A stretch of 64,000 bases of DNA from Bugula neritina. Its lineage: Eukaryota > Bryozoa > Gymnolaemata > Cheilostomatida > Bugulidae. The stretch is taken from assembly GCA_964035545.1 (NCBI GenBank), contig OZ037772.1, positions 12,981,818-13,045,817 on the forward strand. The letters run 5' to 3'. This document shows positions 60,801-63,800 of the stretch, one piece after another (position 1 is the first letter of the stretch; each line of letters begins with the position of its first letter). The notes beneath the pieces are model-generated. The model ran no database searches, had not been told where the DNA came from, and saw nothing but the letters and a program-made list of their open reading frames with translations. Both the position numbers and the translations under genes were made by a program.

Positions 60801-63800
60801 GACTGTCAAATAGTGGCACTCAGTTCGCAAGTAAAGTGAAGCATGAAAACTAACTGTTATACAACTAGAGAGCTTATATAGAAACCTAATCATATTATAA
60901 TATTGTTGTATTACATCCTTGAACTTGTTCAACTCTGCATACTCAGTATAACTTTGCATCCAGAAGGTAATTGTTGTTCCTGTTGGCTATTTTATATTGC
61001 AAGTACAAAAAAATAAGTTCAAATTGATTCATGCTGTGAAAAACATTTTTTTTCAGGTTTTTCAGGTTTTGCAGGTGATGGTGGAAAGAAAGAAATTAAG
61101 TGCTTTCATTGTAATCTACGGAGAGACTTCAGACCAGAGATGTTGCTGGAGGTTGAGGCAGCCTCCTCTTTAGATAAAGATCATCTAAACAACAACTGTG
61201 GTCACATCAATGGTGAGCTGTGGTTACACTGCTGCTTTAACTACTGCCTTGCTTGATTCAAAGCGTTTACACGTAACTCAGAGAATTGAGTGAATTGAGT
61301 CTATCGTCTCCCCTCACAGGCTCTCAACTGACGGGTAACATACCAGATGTCTGCAACCTGCTAGCTTATCAATATGGCCGACAAGCAGACGCCAGCGACT
61401 TGCTGACACAGACAGACTCACTGAATGAGTTCGAGGGTCTCGGCATCAACGTGAATCTGTCGAAACATCCGGAGATGGCTGTGATATCACGGAGATTGGC
61501 CACCTTTCTGACGTACCCGTACAAGTCAGCTAAACATCCCGAGCAGCTGGTGGAGGGAGGATACTTCTATTCTGGTATCTCATAAGTTTCTAGTCTGAAG
61601 TGTGTGCTCTGGTCATTAGAGAGTAAACTGGAGCTACTTCTATTCTGGTTTGATTGTCTAAAATATTTTGTGATTTTAGTGATTTCAAAGATTTTGCTTC
61701 CACTAAAAAGATGCATTCTATACATGTCAAATCATGCCACAGTATACTTAGTTGATAGGTACATGATTATTTCCAGTGCAAGTTTCAGAAGCTTTCTGCT
61801 TGACTCGACTCATCAACTTGATTGAAATATTGATTAGATTTTTGATTTATTAACTAATTCCTCTTTTTATGAAAGTGAAAAGTGTAAGTGAATATTTTAT
61901 TTCAGGATAATGGACTCGGTATATGTTTCCTTATCAAACTGCACATTGAGTTGTACTGACAAACTATTTTTACAGGAGACGGGGAAAGCGTGACGTGCTA
62001 CTCTTGTGGAATAGTGTCAACTGATTGGACGTCCAGATGTGATGTTTTTATTCGTCACGCGAGGAGTTCTCCCATCTGTGCTCACATTATCTCCACCAGA
62101 GGGCAGCAGTTTGTTGATGATGTTCTAGAAGAGTTTGGTTCCTACCATTCTAGACCAGCTGAGGATAAGATTACCGTGAGTTTTATTTTAATATATAATA
62201 TAGTATAGTATAATATAGTATAGTATAGTATAATATAGTACATTATAATATAATATAGTATAATATAATATAATATTTATAGTATAGTATAATATAGTAT
62301 AATATAATATAATATAATATAATATAGTATAGTATAATATAATATTTATACTTCCTGTTGACTAGACGGTAACGAATAGAATGCTGAGACCCCGAATGGA
62401 CTCGATACCAGTACAGAAAACCCTCGATATGGGCATCTCAAGTCAGGCGGTCAGGGCGGTGGTGGCAAAGAGAATTAAGGTGGACTTTATTTTAGAGTTT
62501 CGCATTAAATTAGCCGTTTGGATTTCTAATATTTTTTCTATTACTGTCAGAAAATTGCAGTTTAAAAGTTTAATTACAACAATCATGTAAGAGATAAGCA
62601 CTAGTGGATTTATCTGTATTTGATATTTACTGATATTTCTGGTTACCTTAGAAAGGAGCGCCAGATTTCAAGTATATCTCGGAGATAGTACAGGAAGTGA
62701 AGGAGCTGAATGTTCCGGAAGGTCAGTTGGGAGAGGCCGGAAATACTTCTGTTGTGTTACCTAAAGTACTGAACCTACCAGAATCTGAAAGTGACAGAGA
62801 AGAGGAAGTGATGTTATCAGCAGATGTGCAGATGGATGAGTCAGCAGGACAGAATAGCCATGTGGAGGACAGAACAGCTCTCTCTACAGAGACAGATAAG
62901 ATGGAAGGTATTCATATCTTTTTAGGTTACCAATAGAACTTGATGAATTCTCTACTGTACCGTTCTGTTCCCGAAGATATAGATATAAGGGTGGATATAG
63001 ATACAGGGGTGTGTATAAATACAGGAGTGTACACAGCATATATATATATATATACATATATATATATATATATACAAATATATATATATATACATATATA
63101 TATATATATATATATATATATATATATATATATATATATATATATATATATACGTATATACGTATATATATACATACATATATATATATATATATATATA
63201 TATATATATATATATCTCAATCTGTGGACAGCAGCTATTTCGGGATTTGTCCCCTCATCAGCACAGAACAGAGTACCATGGCCCACACCTTCGCAATAGT
63301 AAAACTTGTAGTTTTACTAAAGCATATTTAAAAGGTGTGTAAACTCAAGCCAGAGTGCTCAAGTGACTCTAGGGGTCACCTAGGAGTCACGAGCATTGCA
63401 AAATGCTAGCAGCTTGAGTTTGTGACCATGGTGAGAGTGCTCAATCATTTAATGTCATTGCTGAGCATTAAATGAGAGCGTAATATACATATATATATAT
63501 ATATATATATATATATATATATATATATATATATATATATATATATATATATATATATATATATATATATATATATATATATATATATATATATATATAT
63601 ATATATATATATATATATATATATATATTAGTTGTAGTTATAACTTAACTATAATTTTCAATTTTCAGCTTTTTGAACTACAGTATAAGATAATTTATTG
63701 AGATATTTGTAATGAAAACCCATTGAGTTACAGTTCAAAGTGAGGTTTCTGCTCTCATGTAGTGAAGGTACAAAAGAGTTTAGTTGTACAGGAAGCACAG

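Follow-up and report, generated by a model that had tools for sequence, protein, structure and literature searches.

The 64-kb window analysed here (the whole stretch of 64,000 nucleotides, from the bryozoan Bugula neritina) carries a metazoan non-LTR retrozyme, an element of known kind with hundreds of copies in the genome. The enzyme that moves animal retrozymes has so far been only a likely candidate in the accessible text of the literature (PMC7229834, PMC7761336, PMC11722881), and this genome gives footprints of it: a structure common to the retrozyme and the Penelope-like elements (PLEs), the same rule for where copies end, and a retrozyme-PLE chimera. On the evidence of the sequences, a PLE probably moves the retrozyme: its reverse transcriptase and nuclease would place copies of a self-cutting and possibly circular RNA in (TA)n tracts, beginning from a point marked by a hairpin. 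We give about an even chance to the further proposal that a bulged hairpin is the start signal of PLE reverse transcriptases, which would begin 2-6 nt upstream of it at letters pairing with the nicked (TA)n, and that retrozymes are parasites of PLEs equipped with this signal and a hammerhead.

Hammerhead ribozyme in the window

A descriptor of the core and three helices, run on both strands of the 64 kb, matched exactly one hammerhead, on the minus strand at 63221-63267. The same descriptor had no match on either strand of 100 Markov-1 sequences of the window's length, which rules out a chance hammerhead. The ribozyme is of type I, with the core CUGAUGA ... GAA ... C17, an open stem I of six pairs (UCUGUG/CACAGA), a stem II of four pairs (GGGG/UCCC) with the loop ACAAA, and a stem III of four pairs (AUAG/CUGU) with the 3-nt loop CUG; cleavage is predicted after C17 at 63227, that is, at 63226-63227 on the minus strand. 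By eye, an internal loop UGU/UU in stem I accompanies the stem II loop ACAAA. The first-pass annotation had drawn this core, these stems of six, four and four pairs and this cleavage position, and the drawing stands. Two of the pairs are wobbles, a G-U in stem II and a U-G in stem III, where C-G is the commonest form among the loci.

Rfam did not recognize the ribozyme. The window hammerhead had no match at the gathering score; hammerhead families were absent from the list for an 801-base query with E up to 10, and for a 72-base query RAGATH-1-hammerhead was the best of five matches, at 15.6 bits against a cut-off of 56.3 (E = 1). A family-typical copy (L014) also stayed below this cut-off of 56.3, at 19.1 bits, and a hammerhead of the element PLE-A scored 17.0 bits against the Rfam type I model, whose cut-off is 34. 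Among the 73 of 15,744 genome candidates that were scored with the type I model there was one match, at 25.4 bits (cut-off 34), and it is the hammerhead of a PLE-A copy. Since the typical copy and the PLE hammerheads are likewise below cut-off, the reach of Rfam seems poor for hammerheads of this lineage. Under a refuting condition set in the first-pass annotation, the lack of a covariance-model match above threshold, its claim would fail; this result is in our view outweighed by the genome context. The minimum-energy fold of the window hammerhead also lacks the three-way junction (z -0.29). The hammerhead core falls outside what energy rules score, and so this missing junction is given little weight, although it still counts against the structure. 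We regard the hammerhead as confirmed, and its self-cleavage as predicted from its anatomy.

Retrozyme unit and its copies

The hammerhead forms the 3′ part of a non-coding unit of 271 nt (63216-63486, minus strand), delimited by aligned copies and by the 271-bp spacing of tandem copies; unit position u corresponds to window position 63487 - u. The GC content is 43% (0.432), and the longest stop-free stretch is 45 codons. The ribozyme had been placed correctly before, but the element as a whole is this larger unit. A 24-nt core pattern with at most three mismatches matched 635 times in the 216-Mb genome, and its reversed control had no match. With a 91-base query, 39 of 40 other scored genome matches were 99% identical, and the identity of other insertions to the window copy ranged from 78 to 99%. 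The earlier view, a recent insertion of a non-autonomous ribozyme-bearing element, is supported by the 635 core matches, by the 99% identities, by the tandem copies 271 bp apart and by a near-identical intron whose (TA)n tract lacks the element.

From 92 loci, overlaps included (8 from the DNA search, 30 from the core pattern, 2 from family searches, 20 from the PLE protein search and 32 cut by coordinates), 69 distinct retrozyme insertions were obtained. The end lies within 5 nt of the unit joint in 63 of the 69, chimera L004 included, and at unit positions 178, 184, 231, 240, 257 and 264 in the remaining six, with ends upstream of the ribozyme under-sampled because most copies were found via the ribozyme. 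The joint carries ATAT (63483-63486, minus strand), where copies open and meet (TA)n; the tract stands directly at the end of 54 of the 63 joint-ending insertions. At the 5′ side, 24 of the 63 start at the joint, and 39 are truncated, beginning anywhere from 34 to 248. Single copies number 48, and 15 insertions hold two to four units (10 double, 4 triple and 1 quadruple). Target-primed reverse transcription fits this pattern, in which the 3′ end is fixed and followed by a dinucleotide tract and the 5′ end is ragged. One copy, in L082 (830-880, minus strand), ends inside the unit at position 178, with CTAT against (TA)n, an unusual end with no hairpin after it on inspection.

The joint at which copies open sits 11 nt past the predicted cleavage site, which suggests that the template ran across that site, either as a circle or as an uncleaved tandem RNA. 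We consider it quite possible, at somewhat under even chances, that the template is uncleaved tandem RNA and that hammerhead and circle are not needed for mobility, since a tandem transcript explains the position of the joint as well as a circle does. In the accessible part of the work on the PLE of Anolis, hammerhead mutants left insertion by the PLE protein in vitro unaffected (Frangieh et al., 2024, PMC11167929). The commonest retrozyme copies preserve the letters and pairs of the core, and circles are reported as abundant in three other animals (PMC7229834); both facts weigh against a dispensable hammerhead, but neither separates the two templates. A self-cutting and possibly circular RNA is kept as the template in the model proposed below.

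Insertion site and host intron

The unit lies antisense in an intron of the plus strand (62908-63850), with GT at 62908 and AG at 63850 by eye. The exon after it resembles, as we take it, the RING of IAPs, and a BIR domain was found in the open frame 46053-46523. (TA)n tracts flank the unit on its 3′ side (63178-63215) and on its 5′ side (63489-63628). In a near-identical intron at about 49960-50110, the (TA)n tract is present but empty (50041-50108), and the retrozyme is absent. The two introns belong to paralogous blocks (48222-50479 and 61439-64000), about 13 kb apart and 90-96% identical, and are read as a recent duplication of part of an IAP-like gene. The plain reading of the comparison would be that the retrozyme entered an existing (TA)n tract after the duplication, and the empty paralogous tract favours a pre-existing tract over one lengthened by the enzyme. 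The antisense position in an IAP intron (by eye, from GT/AG and the next exon), the second near-identical intron and the (TA)n tracts on both sides had been described in the first-pass annotation, and all hold. A crude word search in 31 insertions with a non-TA left flank gave no convincing target-site duplication; the longest non-TA word in it was 8 nt (L060).

Elsewhere in the window, a 673-aa stop-free frame at 4492-6510 (minus strand) includes a transposase domain of the Mutator-like kind (PF20700, E 2e-59). Pfam had no match for two further frames free of stops, each about 400 aa long, at 14667-15860 (plus strand) and 16463-17668 (minus strand); one relative was found for the former, at 88% identity. 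An HSP70 exon lies at 31413-31913 (minus strand), with a similar stretch by eye at 40115-40645 (plus strand).

Penelope-like elements of the same genome

Two retrozyme copies and one PLE end occur together in locus L040. When the PLE frame of this locus was compared with the genome, 150 of 543 candidate matches were scored, and identities among these 150 fell into one group of 72-100% and another of 58-64%. Stop-free PLE frames of 715, 708 and 714 aa were present in L062, L066 and L070, respectively, and Pfam had no match to the three. In an alignment of 16 PLE relatives, YRDD is invariant and a Y-YxG region lies towards the C-terminus; we read the two as marks of a putative reverse transcriptase and a putative GIY-YIG nuclease. 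One Solemya relative matched GIY-YIG, in its aligned part, at 26.2 bits (cut-off 22.6); a GIY-YIG search of the genome gave a single match above cut-off (L039) and did not retrieve the PLEs. The named relatives among the 120 listed for PLE-B are Solemya velum and the bryozoan Watersipora subatra. No relatives of the PLE protein were found in viral and prokaryote contigs, and the PLE profile had no match among solved structures.

A link to Penelope had been suggested by the form of the window ribozyme, and it stands in so far as PLEs of this genome do carry hammerheads. These are three further ones, however, in PLE-A, PLE-B and PLE-C (72 loci), and the part common to PLEs and retrozyme is a pair of hairpins outside 63221-63267. 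The PLE hammerhead pattern had 473 genome matches, of which the first 100 were listed, against 1 for the control. Among the four hammerheads of the genome, those of the retrozyme and of PLE-A, PLE-B and PLE-C, the stem letters differ and the pairing is kept. The PLE hammerheads lie in repeated flanks, with tandem or inverted copies, including a tandem pair 2602 bp apart. Having no reverse transcriptase or reading frame of its own, the window element is not an autonomous PLE; its anatomy suggests that it works like a PLE end module.

On contig C2, at 29948811-30029972, ten PLE-frame matches of 90% identity lie on one strand about 9 kb apart, which by this spacing are read as a large tandem array containing a PLE piece. 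Palindromes occur at the borders of inverted or chimeric PLE pieces in L040 (about 940-985) and L083 (1303-1350). Similar border palindromes have been described for rotifer Penelope elements.

Twin bulged hairpins

Retrozyme and PLEs have in common a hairpin of the form GCUC-stem-loop-stem-NN-GAGC-ACU. On the minus strand, the retrozyme carries H1 at 63435-63479 (GCUC-stem-loop-stem-UU-GAGC-ACUC) and, 85 nt after it, H2 of the same form at 63353-63394. The order of the two is the same in four elements, with a spacing of 85 nt in the retrozyme, 80 nt in PLE-A, 65 nt in PLE-B and 77 nt in PLE-C, and H2 of the three PLEs stands about 20 nt before ATG. The word GAGCAC occurs nine times in five stretches (2, 2, 2, 2 and, in the element D introduced below, 1), always inside such a hairpin. 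Seven of the nine hairpins were more stable than dinucleotide shuffles at the 5% level, the exceptions being H2 of PLE-B (0.106) and H2 of PLE-C (0.088). The energy fold has the 2-nt bulge in seven of the nine as well, in two of these displaced by one pair, and lacks it in PLE-B H2 and PLE-D H1. The letters of the upper stem vary among the hairpins, with pairing kept.

Two such hairpins were found in 7 of 100,000 shuffled retrozyme units, a count that is if anything too high because wrap-round matches can count twice, and at least one in 137 of 100,000. With no structure required, 2123 of 50,000 shuffled units contained GAGCACT one or more times, and 41 contained it two or more times. The retrozyme and the three PLE non-coding stretches have no other 7-base word in common. 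The best BLAST match between the retrozyme and PLE non-coding DNA was the hairpin arm TTGAGCACTCTC (E 0.05), the others being of 9-12 bases; a retrozyme that is by sequence a PLE remnant is ruled out, as the homology is limited to this arm.

In 356 kb, the hairpin descriptor matched 31 distinct sequences, 30 of them in the retrozyme or PLE-A, PLE-B or PLE-C, against 4 matches in 4.0 million strand-bases of a Markov control, a specificity that holds for the loci and window making up the 356 kb (overlaps included) and this control, in one genome, and for a descriptor devised after the elements had been seen, most loci having been fetched for containing them. Within the 64-kb window, it matches only the retrozyme. 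The 31st sequence lies in L083 downstream of a hammerhead-like sequence with A replacing G12 (by eye), which is taken as a fourth such element, D, found via its hairpin.

Copy ends and chimeras

Alignment to read-through sequence gave 34 PLE ends, or 32 distinct ones when identical contexts are counted once (L043 and L044 show the same pair of ends). Thirty of the 32 lie 2-6 nt before a hairpin, 19 of them at 2-6 nt before H1 and 11 at 4-6 nt before H2; of the other two, L054 reads into the next tandem copy, and L010 does not fit. Most hairpin-proximal ends (27/30) run into (TA)n. The ends in L045 and L042 run into (CA)n and (GT)n, respectively, and that in L011 into a short TA run followed by (GT)n; from these three, dinucleotide tracts in general may be the target. 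The joint of the retrozyme likewise lies 3 nt before its own H1. Its H2 serves as a copy end in none of the 69 insertions, and the lack of A/U-rich letters before this hairpin makes its disuse fit a requirement that the start pair with a TA primer.

It is unlikely, though worth weighing, that PLEs move the retrozyme while the hairpins serve as promoter or in nuclease binding, RNA stability or translation, the ends falling nearby only through the A/U-rich joint. The place of H2 just before the ATG of PLEs and the unused H2 of the retrozyme would suit such a role. The PLE ends at two separate points, before H1 and before H2, do not, and translation cannot explain the H2 of the retrozyme, which has no frame above 45 stop-free codons. 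The hairpin is retained as the candidate start signal.

In L004, the retrozyme is joined directly to a PLE-C tail with no (TA)n spacer, and this tail enters (TA)n near PLE-C's own H2 point. With no TA between the two parts, a template switch in one copying event would fit better than two insertions. In L083, the retrozyme abuts element D at a common GAG, a junction that appears weaker than L004 as evidence of a chimera.

The chimera bears also on the idea that another non-LTR reverse transcriptase, that of a LINE, moves the retrozyme, with PLE-like hairpins and (TA)n ends due to coincidence or to a common target preference. LINEs are named beside PLEs as candidates in the accessible text of one source (PMC7229834), fixed 3′ ends and 5′ truncation are LINE-like too, and GAGCACT by itself is no rarity among shuffled units (2123/50,000). 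We nevertheless hold this idea to be quite improbable, given that two hairpins of the exact form arise in just 7 of 100,000 shuffles, that their order is the same and their spacing similar in four elements, that retrozyme and PLEs follow the same copy-end rule, and that L004 joins the retrozyme to PLE-C. A plain satellite is ruled out by the dispersed, truncated copies. That the element is satellite DNA which spread through breakage and unequal exchange is improbable in the extreme: the tandem copies in 15 of 63 insertions and the first description of such repeats as satellites (PMC7229834, in its accessible part) speak for it, and the dispersed single copies, whose 3′ end is fixed and whose 5′ ends are ragged, speak against it, as does the empty paralogous (TA)n site.

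Proposed mechanism of retrozyme mobility

Considering these results, we have proposed a model in which a PLE probably supplies the enzyme. Transcription would start from tandem or read-through retrozyme copies, and the transcript would cleave itself at the hammerhead. A host ligase may then join the ends of the cleaved RNA to form a circle, as described for circular retrozyme RNA in other animals in the accessible text of PMC7229834. The PLE protein would bind the bulged hairpin of the retrozyme RNA and its nuclease would nick a (TA)n tract, allowing the A/U-rich point a few bases 5′ of the hairpin to pair with the nicked (TA)n end. Copying would begin there and proceed up the RNA over part of a unit, a whole unit or several of them; once the copy meets AUAU again, it would jump across the (TA)n tract to its other side.

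Two of these steps differ from, or are not backed by, what the accessible part of the Anolis work reports (PMC11167929). The start site of that PLE is non-homologous to the cut DNA, unlike the pairing proposed here, where copy ends agree with the TA target in a few letters, and the hammerhead is dispensable in vitro, which does not support the cleavage step. Two start sites explain an optional tail in the same Anolis element (PMC11167929), and the hairpin rule offers an explanation for the two alternative PLE ends, with and without tail. If true, a hairpin start signal would settle who moves animal retrozymes, and the question can now be put to the test using short RNAs and a single purified protein.

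Comparison with known systems

SINE-LINE pairs consist of an autonomous element and a short non-coding partner that carries the recognition part of the former. The present pair differs from these in that the autonomous partner would be a PLE, what the two have in common is structural, with little identity of sequence, and a ribozyme is carried. Plant LTR retrozymes are also hammerhead-bearing non-autonomous retroelements, but in the accessible text of PMC7229834 they have a type III hammerhead, LTRs and circles of 600-800 nt, none of which occurs here.

Metazoan non-LTR retrozymes are well established as a class of element (Cervera and de la Pena, 2020, PMC7229834), and PLEs are regarded as their likely partners from co-occurrence and from hammerheads in common (PMC7229834, PMC7761336, PMC11722881; accessible parts). 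By description, not by sequence, the window element was compared with the published retrozymes: it agrees with them in its type I hammerhead, a non-coding unit in the range of 170-400 nt, a GC content below 50%, copies from monomers to multimers and PLEs in the genome, and differs from them, as described in the accessible text of PMC7229834, in its (TA)n ends, in the twin hairpins common to it and PLEs and in the PLE chimera. Our literature search found no paper joining hammerhead ribozymes and bryozoa. Nor was a description of the hairpin or the end rule found in the accessible parts of the literature searched.

With hammerhead-bearing PLEs (PMC11167929, in its accessible part), the window element shares a hammerhead beside the copy ends, tandem units and A/T-rich targets; unlike them, it encodes no protein. 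The Anolis PLE is reported to start internally beside a stem loop and to cut at A/T-rich sites (Frangieh et al., 2024, PMC11167929), and the internal start beside a stem loop and the choice between two ends, one tailed and one tailless, are likenesses to what we describe here. The retrozyme is a further case of a known kind, and the signal of its partner may be new.
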